From contig CALFOZ010000218.1 of the NCBI GenBank assembly GCA_937919205.1, positions 1-35,152 on the forward strand: a stretch of 35,152 bases of DNA. The letters are read 5' to 3'. Positions 7,255 through 18,475 of this stretch are shown one piece after another. This DNA comes from an uncultured Planctomycetia bacterium (lineage in GTDB: Bacteria > Planctomycetota > Phycisphaerae > Phycisphaerales > SM1A02). Under the pieces are notes generated by a model. The model saw only the letters and a program-made list of their open reading frames with translations, had not been told where the DNA came from and did not search any database. Position 1 is the first letter of the stretch. Every line of letters begins with the position of its first letter. A program made the position numbers and the translations under genes.

Positions 7255-8325
7255 TTACGGATCGGGTGGCGGCTCAAATGGCGGGGGTTCGGTCGGTTCT
7301 GGAATTGGCGCGGGTTCAACGACTGGTTCAACGGCCGGCTCCGTGACTGGAATTGGCGCGGGTTCAACGACTGGTTCAACGGCCGGCTCCGTAACTGGAG
7401 TTGGCGCGGGTTCAACGACTGGTTCAACCATCGGCTCCGTGACTGGAATTGGCGCGGGTTCAACGACTGGTTCAACGACTGGTTCAACGACCGGCTCCAT
7501 GACTGGAATTGGCGCGGGTTCAACGACTGGTTCAACGACCGGCTCCGTGACTGGAATTGGCGCGGGTTCAACGACTGGTTCAACAACCGGCTCCGTGGTT
7601 GGAGTTAGCGCAGGCTCAACCACTGGTTCAACAACTGGTTCAACAACTGGTTCAACCATCGGCTCCGTGACTGGAGTTGGCGCGGGCTCAACCACTGGCT
7701 CGACCACTGGCTCAACCACTGATTCAACTGGCAAATCTTGTTGTGTGACGGGCGGCTGAGTAACGACTGCCCGAGTGTCCTTTGGAATAGAAATTTCGGC
7801 CGGGCTATTTGCATCGCTCGCAGGAACCGGCACCACGGGAAATGGCGTTGAGCGCTCAGGCAACCTACTTGAATCAGTTGATGAATACTGGGTAATTTGA
7901 GCCTTTTTCTCTAGTGGCATTCCAGAGAGTCGCCGTTCCACTTCATCCAAATAATGCCTCGCTTGAAGCCAAAAATGCGCCGGAACAACAATTGAGCTTG
8001 TGGAAAATTCCACGGTCGGCGGAGTTTCGTCGGTGACCAACGCGCTAAATTTCCACTCGCATTCCTCGCGCCGAGGTGGCGATCCAGCAATCATCAAGTC
8101 GCGGCGCAGATCACGGCGAATTTCTATTCGACTTGCGGAGTCATCGCGCCAGACTTCATTGTCAACCACAATCCAATCGGAGTAGCGAGGATCCTCCGCC
8201 GCTTGCACCATGGCTTTCCAAACTTGATCACGGCTGTGTCCAGGAAATTCACGCTCCTTGGTTCCACACGCGCCAAGCACGGGTAGAAAAACAATACTCA
8301 GAATTAAAAATTGTAGGAGCTTCAT
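7255..8325 (-). CDS. Lipoprotein with C-terminal VVEP/APxP tandem-repeat tail
   Basis: I do not recognise a named family. The first 19 residues are a lipoprotein signal ending in the lipobox LGAC, so C20 should be acylated. Residues about 21-145 form a compact mixed domain with SRDQVWKAMVQAAEDPRYSDW and a charged RRDLRRDL stretch, which could be a small periplasmic module. Residues about 200-350 are a proline- and valine-rich repeat of VVEP units inside a 16-residue period (VVEPVVEPAPIPVTEP), ending in PPPFEPPPDP. Such acidic Pro-rich tails are usually extended and could span periplasm or bind envelope partners, as the EP/KP region of TonB does; that is analogy only. It starts 3 bp after the yebC stop, so it is probably coupled to it. 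Confidence 0.85.
   Translation of the reverse strand: MKLLQFLILSIVFLPVLGACGTKEREFPGHSRDQVWKAMVQAAEDPRYSDWIVVDNEVWRDDSASRIEIRRDLRRDLMIAGSPPRREECEWKFSALVTDETPPTVEFSTSSIVVPAHFWLQARHYLDEVERRLSGMPLEKKAQITQYSSTDSSRLPERSTPFPVVPVPASDANSPAEISIPKDTRAVVTQPPVTQQDLPVESVVEPVVEPVVEPAPTPVTEPMVEPVVEPVVEPVVEPALTPTTEPVVEPVVEPAPIPVTEPVVEPVVEPAPIPVMEPVVEPVVEPVVEPAPIPVTEPMVEPVVEPAPTPVTEPAVEPVVEPAPIPVTEPAVEPVVEPAPIPEPTEPPPFEPPPDP
7301..7732. repeat. Nested 48-bp / 12-bp minisatellite in the lipoprotein gene
   Basis: The unit core GGA(A/G)TTGGCGCG (plus strand) begins at 7301, 7349, 7397, 7445, 7505, 7553, 7601 (as GGAGTTAGCGCA) and 7673. The period is 48 bp except for steps of 60 and 72 bp, which are 48 plus one or two extra 12-bp units (ACGACTGGTTCA type, encoding VVEP read from the minus strand). 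All steps are multiples of 12, so the frame is kept. This is a two-level repeat that could vary by slippage or recombination. Confidence 0.93.
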
Positions 8326-13415: not shown

Positions 13416-13838
13416 TCAATCTTGTGTGGGTTCTTCTGGCGCGCAATCACTGGCTGGCATGTGCCCACGTGATTGACTGGCCGCCTGCATGGCGGCGTCT
13501 AGTGCGGCTTGTTTTTTAAGCGAGTCATCAAGTACAAATTCCAAGCGTGGAAGACGGCGAATTTCGATTTTTTTGAACATGCCCGCCTTCAAACGCCCAC
13601 TGGCGTGGCGCAGGGCGGCGAGAGCCAACATGCCGCGCTCGCCAGGCAGAACCGAAATATGAAATCGGACTGTGGATCGATCCGGTGTCATGACCGCGTC
13701 AAGCACGGTGATCAAACATCCTTCAACGCGCGGATCGGCCATGCCCTCGGCGATGGCCGACTGCATGGCGCGGCGAAGCGCCGATGACAATCGCCCGGCG
13801 GCTCGTTCATCCGATGGCTCGTGATCGTTGTGGTTCAT
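13416..13838 (-). CDS. rbfA: Ribosome-binding factor A
   Basis: RbfA is a single KH-domain factor that helps mature the 3' and 5' ends of 16S rRNA and acts on late 30S precursors. The core is visible: an N-terminal helix RRAMQSAIAEG, then DPRVEGCLITVLDAVMTPDRSTVRFHISVL, then a helix ALRHASGRLKAGMFKK and the closing strand IRRLPRLEFVLDDSLKK. A longer reading frame starts at 13883, but the ATG at 13838 overlaps the infB stop as ATGA, so I take 13838 (140 residues). The acidic C-terminal tail after about residue 115 is not conserved. It completes the nusA-infB-rbfA order found widely in bacteria. Confidence 0.93.
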   Translation of the reverse strand: MNHNDHEPSDERAAGRLSSALRRAMQSAIAEGMADPRVEGCLITVLDAVMTPDRSTVRFHISVLPGERGMLALAALRHASGRLKAGMFKKIEIRRLPRLEFVLDDSLKKQAALDAAMQAASQSRGHMPASDCAPEEPTQD

Positions 13839-16696
13839 CGTGTGGCCGGCATTGATCGAGTCACAGTTGAAGTTCGGTAACACTCAAGCACGTCGCCTGT
13901 CTTGATGTCGTTGTAGCCAACAATCTTCATGCCGCACTCCATGCCGGCGCGAACTTCCTTGGCGTCGTCTTTAATGCGCTTGAGTTGCTCAAGTCGGCGG
14001 TCCTTCTCAATCACAATGCCATCGCGCGTGACGCGGATTTGCGCGTTGCGCTCCACCACGCCATCGGTGACATAGCAACCCGCGATCATGCCGACCTTGG
14101 AAATCTTGAACACCTCGCGCACTTCGGCGTGGCCTAGAACTTCCAATTTAATTTCCGGCGTCAACAAGCCGCTGGCGGCTTGCGTGACATCGTCCACCAA
14201 CTCATAAATGACTTCATACAGCCTAATTTCAACGTTTTTACGTTCCGCCAACGCGCGCGCCTTGCTACTGCTGGTGACATTAAATCCAAGAATAATGGAG
14301 CCCGTGGCCTCGGCCAAAGAGACATCGCTTTCATTGATGCCGCCCACCGCGGAGTGGCGAACATTGACCGCGACCTCGTCGGTCTTGATCTTGCCCAGAA
14401 CGGTGCGCAGGGTTTCCATGCTTCCTTGCACATCGGCCTTCACAAGCAGACCAAGCTCCTTCACTTGCTCCTTGCCCATGTGCTCAAAGATGTTGTCAAG
14501 CGTGATCTTTGGCGCCGCAAGTTCGCGCTCGCGCTCAATACGACGGCGCTCATGCGCGGCGTCCTCGGCGTCGGGCAAACTTTTCACGCAGAAGAATTTA
14601 TCGCCCGCGTCCGGCATCATGTCAATGCCGCTGATGGCGACCGGCGTGCTTGGTCCCGCTGAATCAACGCGCTGACCCTTGTCGTTGACAAGATCGCGCA
14701 CGCGACCAAAGGCGCGGCCAATCACAACGAAGTCACTGCGATTTAAAGTTCCCTCTTGCACGATCAAGCGCGCGACGGCGCCGCGGCCTTCTACAAGTTG
14801 CGCCTCAAGCACGGTGCCTTGCGCCAATCCCTTGTAGTCCGCCTTCAAACCAAGCAATTCCGCCTGATAATCCAGCACATCCAGCAACTCTTGAATGCCC
14901 GTGTTCTTGGTCGCGCTGGTCTTGATGACTTCAGTTGAACCGCCCCACTCCACGGGATTCAATCCGTGCTCGGCGAGCTGTCCATTGATGCGCTGGATAT
15001 TTTTCTCCGTGGCTTCTGGTTTGTCAATCTTATTCAGCGCCACAACAATCGGAACGCCCGCGGCCTTGGCGTGGTTGATGCTCTCAACGCTTTGCGGCAT
15101 GACGCCGTCGTCCGCGGCAATGACCAGCACCACAATGTCGGTCACCTTGGCGCCGCGCGCGCGCATGTTGGTGAAAGCCTCGTGGCCCGGCGTGTCAATA
15201 AATGTGATGACGCGATCTTCATCGCCGGCCTTGACCGGAGTTTGAAACGCGCTCGTTGCCTGCGTGATTCCGCCGGCCTCGCCCGCGGCGACATTGGCGT
15301 TGCGAATGCGGTCAAGCAAACTTGTCTTGCCGTGATCGACGTGACCCATGATGGTGACCACGGGACTGCGCGGACGCTCGTCACTACGGACGCGCTCTTT
15401 GAAACCCGCCTCGATAATGTCGGCGGCACTGCGGGCCTCCTCAATCACCAACTCAATGTCAAACTCCAGCATGGTTTCAAGCGCTTGATCGGATGTGATC
15501 ACGCTGTTGATTGTGGCTGTTGTGCCCTTCATAAAGAGCTTTTTAAGAATGTCGCCAGCCTTCACGCCCGTGACGGAGGAGAGCTCCTTGATGTTGATGG
15601 GCTCGGAAATTTTCACCACGCCAGTGACTGGACCTAATTGACGGGCGGGCTGAAGCGTGGATTTTTTATTTGATGTGACCGTGCGGTTCTTGCGGAAGAA
15701 ACCCGTGGACGACATGCGATCTTCGCGCTCCTTGATGTCCTGCTTGCTACGCTCGCTGGCTGGCGATTCACCGCCAGGTCGACCACGAGTATCGTTGGCG
15801 CTCACGCGACGCTTGTTTCGATCGGGCGCGCGCGCGGACGCGCCGGCTGGTCCGCCGCTCGCTGGAGCGCCAGTGCCTCCACTGACTCCAGCGCCACCAC
15901 CACCAAATCGTGGACCAGGACGATTGAGACCTTGACCAGCGCCAGGAATAAATCGTGGCCGCGGCGCGGGTAGCACATCGGGTGTCTCAACGCGAATCAC
16001 GCGCGGACCAGAAAGATTGGTCTTGATTGGTTGCTCCAACATTGGTCCAACAGGGCGCACATCCGTGGGACGCGTTGGAACATTGGCTTGCGCTGGCGGA
16101 CCAGGCCTAAGAAATGTTTTGGGTGGCGCAACTGGCGCAGAGGGTTTTTGCTCCGCGGGGCGAGGCGCCTCTGGCGGATGGGCTTTTTTCGTGGCGTGGA
16201 TTGATGGCGCAACGTGACCAGAAGCATCCGGGTTTTGATCGGCGCGATCCCCCGCCATTGATTGTGAAATTTCGGCTTTTTCAGCTGGTTTTTCAGTGAT
16301 TTCAACGGCGCTTGCATCAACAACAGCGGCGCTGGATTCTGCGGCAACTTTGGGCGCGGCCTTGCGCACAACCGGAGTGGGCTTTGGCGCAACTGGGCGA
16401 GCCGCCAATTTCTTGGCGCTCACTTTCTTGGTGGACGAGCCATCTTCATCAGTGGTTGCTTCGCTGGCTTTGCTCGCGTCGGCCTTGCTTGCAACAGTTT
16501 CTACCGGCGCCTCCTGCACAGCGACACCACCACCAAACCATTCACGAATGGTCAGCGCCAATCCCATTGAGATTGTGGATTGAGGCTGTTTGACATCTGA
16601 AATGCCCTCCGCTTCACAGCGAGCAATAATGTCCTTGGTTGCAACGCCAAGGTCTTTCGCCAACTGTGATACGCGGACTTTCGTGATTTTGGACAA
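13835..16696 (-). CDS. infB: Translation initiation factor IF-2
   Basis: IF-2 is the GTPase that brings fMet-tRNA to the 30S subunit and promotes 50S joining. At 953 residues it is a long form. An IF2_N module occupies 1-53 and a second 363-415. Between them is a disordered linker of Ala/Pro/Lys then Gly/Arg/Pro (about 60-330). The G domain has G1 GHVDHGKT at 451-458, G3 DTPGHE at 501-506, G4 NKID at 555-558 and G5 SAT at 594-596, followed by domains II-IV to the end. The start codon is TTG at 16696, not ATG, with AAGGA 6 nt upstream. The stop overlaps rbfA by 4 bp. The gene follows nusA by 67 bp. Confidence 0.97.
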
Positions 16697-16763: not shown

Positions 16764-18077
16764 TCAATGTTTGCCACCGAGAATGTCGTCGGCCGCGGCT
16801 TCCGCGGATTGATCCACTTCAACCGCCGGCGCGGAGCCCAACAGCACATCCGCCGCCGCGCCTTCTTGCGCCGCCAATTGCTCCGCCGCGGTCTTCTCTT
16901 GCTCTTGTTGCTCGGCGACAATCTTGGCCTTGTCAATGCATGTGGTCACGATCAAGTCGGCCAACTCCGGTCCGATGCCTAAATTAGTCTCCAGAATTTC
17001 TGGACCAACTTCCTCCACATCAAACACGCTGATCAAACCAAGCGCGCCAAATTTATCCAGCATTTCATCGGTAATTCCTTCAATTGGACGAACCGTCTCC
17101 TCCAAAATGGCGAGGCCCTTTTGGAACTCGGGTGGCGTGAGAATGTCCACGTCCCAGCCCGTCAAGCGCGCGGCAAGGCGCACGTTTTGTCCACGTCGAC
17201 CAATCGCAAGACTCAGTTGATCGTCGCGCACAATAATGGTGGCGCGGCCAAGTTCAAAGCACAAAGTAACTTCCTCTACTTCGGCTGGCTTGAGCGCGTT
17301 TGAAATCAGAACCTGGCTGGATTCATTCCAGCGCACAATGTCAATCTTCTCGCCGCCGAGCTCGTCAACAATATTGCGAATGCGGCTACCACGAACACCA
17401 ACGCACGCGCCAACGGCATCCACTTTGCTGTCCACGCTTGACACTGCAAGCTTGGTGCGAAAGCCCGCCTCGCGGGACATGGCTTTGATGTCGATCACGC
17501 GCTCGGCAACCTCTGGAACTTCGGCCTCGAACAAACGACGAATGAAATCTGGATGCGCGCGGCTCAGAACAATCTTCACTTGATGGCCGGCGTCGCGCAC
17601 ATCAAGAATCAGACAGCGAACGCGGTCGCCTGGCTGAAATTGCTCGCCAGGAATTTGCTCACTGCGCGGCATGAAGCCTTCGGCACGGTCAATTTGCACA
17701 ACCAATGAACCGCCCTCGTACATTTGTGCGGTGCCTGTGACCAACTCGCCTTGGCGCTTGGAAAATTCCTCCAGCAGGCTGTTGCGCTCCTCTTCACGGA
17801 ACTTCTGAATCATCACTTGCTTGGCTGTTTGCGCAGGAATACGACCCAATGACGACAGTGGAATTTCCTCCTGCGCGCCCTCATCTAGATTGCGCCAAAT
17901 GCGCATGCCGCCATTGAGGCGATCGATCTCGCAACCAAACTCCTCAAGATTTTCGCTGTTGAAATGCTTGCGCGCGGCGCTGACCATGGCTTGCTCAAGA
18001 TCCATGAGCAAAATCTCACGGTCAATGTTGCGGTCGCGGGCGATGGAATCAAGAATGCGGAGTGTTTCACTATTCAT
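16764..18077 (-). CDS. nusA: Transcription elongation/termination factor NusA
   Basis: NusA binds RNA polymerase and nascent RNA to control pausing, termination and antitermination. The 437 residues contain the N-terminal polymerase-binding domain (1-108), an S1 domain (about 111-172), KH1 with GVRG at 227-230 and KH2 with GRRG at 293-296. A C-terminal extension (330-380) has helix-hairpin-helix-like character (GITDEMLDKFGALGLISVFDVEEV), ending in an Ala/Glu-rich acidic tail. It lacks the two long acidic repeats of E. coli NusA. It is the first gene of the leftward cluster. rimP and ylxR, its common neighbours, are absent. Upstream lies a candidate structured leader RNA with an intrinsic terminator ending 82 bp before the ATG, so nusA expression could depend on read-through. 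Confidence 0.96.
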   Translation of the reverse strand: MNSETLRILDSIARDRNIDREILLMDLEQAMVSAARKHFNSENLEEFGCEIDRLNGGMRIWRNLDEGAQEEIPLSSLGRIPAQTAKQVMIQKFREEERNSLLEEFSKRQGELVTGTAQMYEGGSLVVQIDRAEGFMPRSEQIPGEQFQPGDRVRCLILDVRDAGHQVKIVLSRAHPDFIRRLFEAEVPEVAERVIDIKAMSREAGFRTKLAVSSVDSKVDAVGACVGVRGSRIRNIVDELGGEKIDIVRWNESSQVLISNALKPAEVEEVTLCFELGRATIIVRDDQLSLAIGRRGQNVRLAARLTGWDVDILTPPEFQKGLAILEETVRPIEGITDEMLDKFGALGLISVFDVEEVGPEILETNLGIGPELADLIVTTCIDKAKIVAEQQEQEKTAAEQLAAQEGAAADVLLGSAPAVEVDQSAEAAADDILGGKH

Positions 18078-18122
18078 TTGGATGTCTCTTCTGTTTTTGA
18101 GTTACGAAAATTGGATTATGAG

Positions 18123-18146
18123 TTACGCAGTGACGCAGTGACGCAA
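18123..18146. repeat. Three 8-bp tandem units between the terminator and nusA
   Basis: TTACGCAG, TGACGCAG and TGACGCAA follow each other directly. A GAGTTACG octamer also occurs twice close by (18099-18106 and 18120-18127). On the minus strand this gives TGCGTCAC repeats in the nusA 5' region. It is too short to assign a role. Confidence 0.6.
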
Positions 18147-18159
18147 AGTTGTCGCCGTT

Positions 18160-18205
18160 AAAAAAAACGCGGGTCACGCTCGGTACGGCACCGCGGCGTG
18201 ACCCG
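18160..18205 (-). terminator. Strong intrinsic terminator upstream of nusA
   Basis: On the minus strand a perfect 10-bp stem CGGGTCACGC/GCGTGACCCG (18205-18196 with 18079+100, that is 18179-18170) with an inner CGGT/ACCG pairing in the loop is followed by GCG and eight T residues (18167-18160). It would end leftward transcripts 82 bp before the nusA start. No leftward protein gene lies just upstream, so the terminated transcript must arise in the gene-free region. Confidence 0.88.
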
Positions 18206-18441
18206 TTCAATGACTGTCCATCGTGGACAATCAAGGCTTGCTCGGGGGGACCTTTACAACGCGGTCTCCGCGAATAAACCTTCAATCACGCTTGGCGACA
18301 CGCCAAGGCGACACCAACTTCCAAGATGGACGCTCAAGTGCGTCATCGCAGGAAGGTGGTCGACGAAACCATGTTGAGAAAATATGTAGTCATGGGATTC
18401 GATCGTGAAACGGACGGGTCCTATTCCAACAAGGAACGGGT
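18160..18441 (-). ncRNA. Candidate structured leader RNA or small RNA upstream of nusA
   Basis: This about 282-nt leftward transcript is predicted from a sigma70-type promoter at one end and an intrinsic terminator at the other. It has no convincing reading frame. On the plus strand the hairpins lie at 18309-18364 (long stem with inner pairing GATGGACGC/GCGTCATC at 18325-18347), 18291-18307 (CTTGGCG-aca-CGCCAAG), 18260-18272 (CGCGG-tct-CCGCG) and 18215-18229 (TGTCCA-tcg-TGGACA). The 5' terminal ACCCGUUC (18441-18434) is perfectly complementary to GAACGGGU (18208-18201), which shares five bases with the terminator's 5' arm. I do not see RNase P, tmRNA, SRP RNA or a familiar riboswitch core. 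It could be a nusA attenuator or an independent small RNA of 6S type. Confidence 0.6.
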
Positions 18442-18446
18442 GCGTG

Positions 18447-18475
18447 ATTGTACATGAAATCCGCTGAAATCTCAA
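18447..18475 (-). promoter_or_regulatory. Sigma70-type promoter facing nusA
   Basis: On the minus strand TTGAGA (18475-18470), a 17-bp spacer and TACAAT (18452-18447) make a good housekeeping promoter. A start at A18441 would place ACCCGUUC at the RNA 5' end. The spacing and both hexamers are read directly. Confidence 0.75.

Follow-up and report, generated by a model that had tools for sequence, protein, structure and literature searches.

Within the window, by which the whole analysed stretch of 35,152 nucleotides from an uncultured Planctomycetia bacterium is meant, the genes for NusA, IF2 and RbfA follow one another on the minus strand and are preceded by a long RNA leader, the features of which are collected in Table 1. 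This RNA is the cis-acting 5' leader of the nusA-infB-rbfA mRNA in Phycisphaerales (Planctomycetota), and its divergent neighbour encodes a DsbD-like thiol-disulfide protein. Judged from the sequence the leader would be driven by the sigma70-type promoter TTGAGA-17-TACAAT that the original prediction had placed there. The TTGA core of this promoter is invariant across the 12 aligned leaders of the genus, and matches to such a promoter occur once in 1.7 kb, i.e. with no excess over chance (0.8 +/- 0.9 in shuffles). A search of the bacterium's own genome (a 2.49-Mb draft) found no further copy of the leader, 15 of the 16 matches being short and due to chance. The window encodes RbfA, while a search for RimP (PF02576) was negative in all 41 relatives taken from the genus, family and order and positive in 10 of 14 control genomes. 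Elsewhere in the window a putative lipoprotein, recognised by eye at 7255-8325 on the minus strand, carries a long tail of TEPVVEPVVEPAP-type repeats.

Table 1. Positions of the nusA leader features and of the downstream genes in the window
Feature	Position	Strand	Basis and remarks
Promoter TTGAGA-17-TACAAT	18447..18475	-	Sequence; TTGA core kept in the genus
5' hairpin of the leader (contains ACCCGUUC)	18420..18440	-	Computed fold; outside the RNAalifold consensus
P0 5' strand, CCGUCCG, pairing with the terminator flank	18411..18417	-	Pairing in the alignment, fold probabilities
P1, stem around the uORF1 start	18364..18401	-	9 pairs, all formed (100%); a two-sided change in one
uORF1, 16 codons	18343..18393	-	Alternative ATG at 18372; stop TGA overlaps the uORF2 ATG; stop column kept in 13/13 genus leaders
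P2, hairpin with the uORF1 stop and uORF2 start	18320..18354	-	Two-sided changes in 3/4 outer pairs; 4/5 inner pairs invariant
uORF2, 30 codons, MTHLSVHLGSWCRLGVSPSVIEGLFAETAL	18254..18346	-	Start codon within P2; frame and stop kept in 13/13 genus leaders
P3, covarying hairpin within uORF2	18284..18315	-	Two-sided changes in 4/11 pairs
Degenerate mini-ORF counterpart, GGAG-N6-TTG-TAA	18254..18269	-	TTG directly followed by the stop
P4, hairpin pairing the Shine-Dalgarno (SD) sequence, start-stop in the loop	18246..18269	-	97.6% paired; two-sided change in 1/6 pairs
P5, hairpin	18212..18232	-	Two-sided changes in 3/6 pairs
P0 3' strand	18203..18209	-	Shares 2-3 bases with the start of the terminator 5' arm; one pair C.A in the window
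Intrinsic terminator	18160..18205	-	10-bp stem with GGGYC...GRCCC base, inner hairpin, T8
Spacer, terminator to nusA start	18078..18159	-	Sequence
nusA	16764..18077	-	PF08529, PF13184, PF00575
infB (IF2)	13835..16696	-	TTG start listed; PF11987, PF00009, PF04760
rbfA	13416..13883	-	PF02033

Comparison with relatives relied upon leaders, that is the stretches upstream of nusA, cut from part of the genomes in which NusA was detected (14 of 16 in the genus, 112 of 121 drawn from the family, 118 of 121 from the order, 81 of 81 from the class and 58 of 59 from the phylum). Outside the genus the family provided 106 NusA-positive genomes, 103 of which gave 104 leaders, G099, G124 and G130 being left out, and outside the family 51 leaders of the order were used, from 82 NusA-positive genomes. 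The class outside the order contributed 18 leaders from 68 genomes and other classes 26 from 54, these class and phylum leaders coming mostly from the loci with the best NusA matches. The first leader set is without L045, the start of which lies at a contig edge and the genome of which enters the genus alignment as L012, and without the partial L051; the second is without L162, L185, L198 and L204. For counts across the order, the 260 leaders having 400 nt or more upstream were dereplicated into 127 clusters with one representative each. The genome sets behind these 260 overlapped prior to clustering, and a named set of 76 overlaps both the family and the order. At the DNA level a search for relatives matched 46 of 61 genomes at E <= 1, the matches beyond the genus being short and chance-like.

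The leader is a real and conserved structured RNA, undescribed in the literature searched. Its computed fold reaches -116 kcal/mol against -86 +/- 4.8 for shuffles (z -6.3), with 0 of 200 shuffles as good. Rfam has no gathering-level match in the window, a permissive search with the leader returned one chance match (E 1.1, on the opposite strand), and the loci of 20 relatives gave a single chance match. An RNAalifold consensus of the 14 leaders in the genus alignment has 59 pairs, counted as eight helices, and 97.3% of its cells are paired, a figure that leans towards the consensus because the structure was derived from the same alignment. Covariation of the stems in relatives had been named beforehand as the observation on which the idea of a structured RNA could fall; two-sided changes are found in 17 of the 59 pairs and in 70 cells, against 12.6 pairs and 26.6 cells in shuffled alignments and 3-5 pairs and 3-13 cells in slid ones. 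Many of these changes fall between one and the same set of six sequences and the remaining eight, and so reflect fewer events than cells. The arms of the 5' hairpin also change together, by eye, in L047, L048 and L050. With this fold, the covarying stems and the lack of an Rfam match, the hairpin-packed and undescribed RNA of the original prediction is upheld.

At its end the leader runs into an intrinsic terminator, the ten-pair stem (18205-18196 with 18179-18170) and eight T residues (18167-18160) of which lie 82 nt upstream of nusA, just as had been predicted; in the window the base of the stem is GGGUCACGC/GCGUGACCC, of the GGGc...gCCC kind. Under a lenient U-tract rule every one of the 13 genus leaders has a terminator-like hairpin near nusA, as do 68 of the 103 leaders from the rest of the family, 41 of 51 from the order, 13 of 18 from the class and 10 of 26 from the phylum; a stricter U-tract scan retains 7 of the 13 genus leaders, the U-tract being too broken in the other 6. 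Of the 127 clusters 95 have such a hairpin near nusA and 32 lack a clear terminator; far-upstream stretches give 7 of 118 and shuffles 6-12. The spacer that leads on to nusA holds CGACAAC or GACAACC units in many relatives (CGACAAC in 41 of 127 clusters, 3.0 in shuffles), and these could enhance translation as a CA-rich element or serve as a site for a protein. In the window this spacer has an 8-bp direct repeat at 18121-18144, GCGTCACT twice and then GCGTAACT, which is shorter in L012 and was not seen in the other aligned genus leaders.

Pairing of the upstream RNA with the terminator was at the heart of the original prediction, in which the RNA 5' end (ACCCGUUC, 18441-18434) is complementary to 18208-18201, over part of the terminator 5' arm, and a second copy, GACCCGU at 18420-18414, can pair with the same place. 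The sequence match of the 5' end is there, and so is the GACCCGU copy, but as a general switch the 5'-end pairing was rejected: it has zero two-sided changes in the genus alignment, of its eight pairs one is disrupted in 8 and another in 6 of the 14 sequences, and it competes for the site only in the window and in L042, at probabilities of 0.45-0.73 and 0.01-0.61 in the unfinished transcript, so that it is retained as a local substitute in these two. The second copy fared better, since it overlaps the conserved pairing P0 (18417-18411 with 18209-18203), which has at least 6 of its 7 base pairs, G-U allowed, in 14 of 14 genus sequences. The strands of P0 are CCGUCCG and YGGACGG in most of these, and CCGUUCA with UGAACGG or UGAGCGG in L050 and L052. 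Taken alone its covariation amounts to one pair (C-G to U-A) in two cells, which is reached by 106 of 500 shuffles, and the window is the sole genus sequence that is mismatched at that pair.

How P0 and the terminator would share the RNA was addressed by fold computation, with the unfinished transcript represented by sequences cut before the terminator 3' arm at alignment columns 297, 303 and 310. In this unfinished form 12 of the 14 genus sequences prefer P0, at a probability of at least 0.88; with the finished terminator present it has 0-0.72 and the terminator 0.87-0.99. According to these models P0 would form first and later be partly displaced by the terminator. When the uORF region described below is held unpaired P0 drops to 0-0.46 in the finished RNA (terminator 0.88-1.0), and in the unfinished transcript it persists in 12 of 14 sequences (0.69-1.0). 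Occupancy of the uORFs would, as modelled, favour the terminator in the finished RNA only, and this is a weak hint, and the sole computed one, on the direction of control. Since the terminator wins at equilibrium with or without masking, and P0 survives masking in the unfinished RNA, any switch must be a kinetic one. Of the attenuator layout first proposed, the terminator stands, together with a candidate alternative helix in the form of P0, but strict mutual exclusion of the two is not supported, as they share 2-3 bp and by the fold computation can coexist.

Beyond the genus, terminator pairing was followed in 69 of the 92 clusters that carry a two-codon mini-ORF (see below), namely those with a clear downstream terminator. 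A scan of pairing in short windows has peaks at -176 and -152 (t -4.0 and -3.3), and pointed to P0. Complementarity to the terminator flank lies above the 95% level of shuffles in 10, 9, 8 and 15 of the 69 clusters in the windows from -220 to -40, with 3.4 expected; outside this range 6 clusters exceed it between -280 and -220 and 5 between -40 and -10, and the numbers still further upstream are 4 of 67 and 2 of 68. Helices made of Watson-Crick pairs only reach 7 bp in the 5' leader of 16 of the 69 clusters, against 6-10% expected, and in the uORF2 region of 15 of the 69. This equal richness of the uORF2 region means that the P0 5' strand is not at one fixed place in the wider set. A direct pairing of the mini-ORF or of its SD sequence with the terminator arm was also considered and finds no clear support, being not above the control segment (z -2.9 against -2.7 over the 69 clusters).

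The leader is not simply the non-coding stretch that it had been taken for. Two small open reading frames, uORF1 and uORF2, overlap in an ATGA, with uORF2 beginning ATGACG, the frame and stop of both are kept in 13 of 13 genus leaders, and a mini-ORF site found across the order lies at the end of uORF2. As far as the alignment goes the two frames rank with the best-conserved parts of the leader, and their translation, or the frame as such, may matter. A conserved leader peptide was rejected as an explanation, the codon scores of the genus uORFs being no better than those of column shuffles (z 0.17 and 0.65), and so no selection on the peptides is seen there; the substitutions in uORF2 are spread near-evenly over the three codon positions (211, 210 and 227). 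The same test over 14 leader clusters with at least three members puts most small ORFs at z near 0 and an apparent tail of the upstream coding sequence at 8.4 (synonymous to non-synonymous 71/8). The outliers are a uORF in the L070 cluster (2.5; 1 of 300 shuffles) and, close to the end of the upstream gene, a short segment in the L114 cluster (4.1). A separate codon test of the genus gave at most 1.8, for a long frame containing uORF2 in the five more distant members.

Close to the uORF2 stop a pattern of the form GGAGG...ATG NNN TGA was first spotted by eye in the family leaders, and it is this two-codon mini-ORF, an SD sequence (an SD-like core of at least 4 bases being required for the count), a start, one sense codon and a stop, that is the most conspicuous element across the order. 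It is present in 92 of the 127 leader clusters and missing in 35. Within the family, genus included, 75 of 117 leaders and 41 of 51 clusters have it, where 100 shuffles give a mean of 3.85 and a maximum of 8, and the controls give 2 of 117 for reverse complements and 3 of 112 for far-upstream stretches. Further out it is found in 43 of 51 leaders of the order outside the family, 61 of 76 in the named set, 7 of 18 in the class outside the order and 0 of 26 in other classes, with far-upstream controls of 2/49, 1/72, 0/17 and 3/26 respectively. As the other classes of Planctomycetota have terminator-like hairpins in 10 of 26 leaders and the mini-ORF in 0 of 26, the terminator and the mini-ORF may have separate histories.

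The length of the unit stands out when other lengths are counted in the same way, with SD-start-k codons-stop being found in 10, 92, 18, 5, 5, 5, 4 and 7 of the 127 clusters as k rises from 0 to 7, and in 6-21 where k lies between 8 and 15, against shuffles of 6.9 for k = 1 (at most 12 in 40 shuffles) and 3.8-6.5 for other k. In the region from -400 to -40 somewhat more than in shuffles is also seen for k = 2, 8, 13 and 14 (18, 21, 18 and 15 against 4-7; for the last three 4.9, 4.9 and 3.9). The triplet after the single codon is TGA in 65 (4.9 shuffled), TAG in 16 (1.3) and TAA in 12 (1.1), the triplet before it is ATG in 74 (1.6) and GTG in 15 (2.6), less clearly TTG in 9 (3.0) and CTG in 4 (1.7), and the middle codon itself is of 33 kinds among the 92 clusters (ACC 19, GCC 11). 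This grammar of start, one codon and stop fits translation better than it fits a plain RNA motif. The pattern GGAG-N5-10-ATG-NNN-TGA occurs at 17, 25, 32, 35 and 119 places in five whole genomes, the reversed pattern at 5-46; the motif alone is not specific, and its frequency before nusA is. In L334 and L212 an SD-ATGACCTGA unit lies upstream of nusA twice, 81 nt apart.

The reading frame of the mini-ORF is also open for a long way upstream, over a median of 48 codons against 30 and 28.5 in the other two frames (Wilcoxon p 2.7e-5 and 6.3e-6), and at least 25 codons are open in 88% against 64% and 66%. The mini-ORF frame holds an ATG or GTG ORF in 85% (51% and 38% for the other two), and in 46 of 92 clusters it has a start that overlaps the stop of another frame (23 and 3 for the other two). 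Because of this openness ribosomes on uORF2 would often finish at the same stop as those on the mini-ORF. The window itself departs from the one-codon pattern, there being no sense codon between its TTG and TAA, and in the genus the one-codon pattern is seen in 1 of 13 leaders, that of L044 only. An SD-like stretch, the surrounding P4 hairpin and the stop are retained by the genus at the degenerate site, and the focal genus would then be a derived case in which an ancestral mini-ORF has decayed to this counterpart.

From the features compared we infer, with moderate confidence, that the leader is a translation-responsive transcription attenuator of NusA, IF2 and RbfA. Ribosomes on uORF1 and uORF2, or initiating and terminating on the mini-ORF, would occupy the middle of the leader and so weaken P0, whereupon the terminator would form and transcription would end before nusA. 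When initiation is poor, or ribosomes are in short supply, the domain would fold and P0 would hold the base of the terminator 5' arm, so that the polymerase would read through and more NusA, IF2 and RbfA would be made. As the single sense codon differs among lineages the mini-ORF probably does not sense one particular amino acid, and would instead report upon initiation, termination or recycling generally, which would be a natural feedback for an operon encoding IF2. In the genus, with its 1 of 13 matches to the mini-ORF, a ribosome at that site would have to come from uORF2. That the start-one codon-stop unit is a general sensor of initiation, with the cycling of ribosomes deciding whether the polymerase passes and IF2 feeding back on its own operon via the step it catalyses, is put forward much more tentatively.

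The reader of the leader could also be a protein. An attenuator resembling the rimP-leader, upon which most simply NusA would act by strengthening termination, and for which the uORFs would keep the leader clear or be incidental, is conceivable though on the whole unlikely. The operon and the GGGc...gCCC terminator base are as in the rimP-leader, for which NusA has been proposed as the reader, and E. coli NusA represses its own operon (both according to PMC2965389); further, GGCCACG is found at the ends of 47 of 127 leaders against 5.3 in shuffles. But a NusA reader leaves the start-one codon-stop grammar, the SD sequence and the openness of the frame unexplained, and the rimP-leader model RF01770 is above its cut-off in 0 of 41 relatives.

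Rather improbable, in our view, is a purely post-transcriptional role of the mini-ORF, in which the terminator is constitutive and a ribosome parked at the strong SD sequence serves to protect or deliver the mRNA. A GGAG core does stand 5-10 nt before the mini-ORF start in 76 of 92 clusters, and among minigenes that of axe-txe raises downstream expression in cis, with protection of the mRNA suggested, and that of LEE1 affects ler (PMC8708949). Against this, the mini-ORF lies far from nusA (quartiles 179, 203 and 243 nt) and in 69 of 92 clusters a clear terminator separates the two; a direct coupling of the mini-ORF to nusA is therefore unlikely.

Control by cold shock, with RNA chaperones opening the hairpins of the leader in the cold so that the polymerase can pass, in the manner of CspA proteins on the operon of E. 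coli, would give the mini-ORF no reason and is very improbable here, even though transcripts of the E. coli operon increase under cold stress and CspA proteins are cited as antiterminators (both in PMC6511841). A stand-alone small RNA of the 6S kind that merely ends before nusA, which the original prediction had kept as its alternative, has its own promoter, its own terminator and a strong fold to its credit, but is hardly credible with no Rfam match, a place before nusA in the leaders examined, and overlapping ORFs and an SD-start-stop grammar typical of an mRNA leader.

Overall, were the translation-responsive attenuator to operate as proposed, a conserved ORF of two codons ahead of a core operon for transcription and translation would represent an extreme form of leader control, and one that is easily tested. 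IF2, NusA and RbfA would be tuned jointly by measuring initiation and not one amino acid, and a minimal ORF would act as a regulator throughout most of a bacterial order. The leader also points to a possible way of controlling a nusA operon in the absence of rimP.

Classical attenuation of the trp and his type is mediated by the ribosome and uses a leader-peptide ORF, a terminator and an alternative helix. The present leader shares with it the succession of leader ORFs and then a terminator with a candidate alternative helix, and differs in that there is no run of a single codon, no conservation of a peptide in the genus and a middle codon of 33 kinds. Autoregulation of a translation factor through the step which that factor performs is established for infC, with its rare start codon, and for prfB, with its in-frame stop. 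What the nusA leader would have in common with these is the tuning of a factor via its own step, here for an IF2 operon and by means of a leader mini-ORF and a terminator.

Feedback of NusA on its operon in E. coli is known (PMC2965389; also cited in PMC6511841), and the rimP-leader (RF01770; Naville and Gautheret 2010, PMC2965389), with its GGGc...gCCC terminator base and NusA as the proposed reader, is a comparison from the same operon. Both are leaders of an operon with nusA and infB, both have a terminator shortly before the first gene and an unusual, conserved GGG...CCC stem base, and a NusA feedback is plausible in both. In contrast to the rimP-leader, the one described here occurs where rimP was not found (0 of 41 relatives), is long and multi-helical, and has uORFs and, over most of the order, a two-codon mini-ORF; RF01770 at or above 47 bits was found in none of the 41 relatives and not in the window, and among the weak matches listed none lies at a nusA leader.

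In the openly licensed PMC papers that were searched no description of this leader, or of a minigene before nusA, was found, the nearest being CDS115, a candidate small coding sequence of E. coli that is co-conserved with rimP and proposed as a leader of rimP-nusA. It was detected with a transposon reporter (PIRT-Seq) and was not confirmed by western blot (PMC12350097). The likeness, a small ORF as the proposed rimP-nusA leader, is one of description and not of compared sequence, and the mini-ORF grammar sets the two apart, the 630 nt before E. coli rimP being without an ATG/GTG/TTG-NNN-stop. Given this E. coli candidate, a translated leader on the nusA operon may predate the Phycisphaerales clade.

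Two-codon leader minigenes as such are known from LEE1 ler of EHEC and from axe-txe (PMC8708949), and like the mini-ORF they consist of an SD sequence, a start, one sense codon and a stop within a leader and presumably act in cis. Unlike them the Phycisphaerales mini-ORF lies far from its gene, mostly before a terminator, and in the window has a degenerate form. Whereas the LEE1 and axe-txe minigenes are, as presented in PMC8708949, single cases tied to translation or stability, the mini-ORF before nusA recurs over most of an order.
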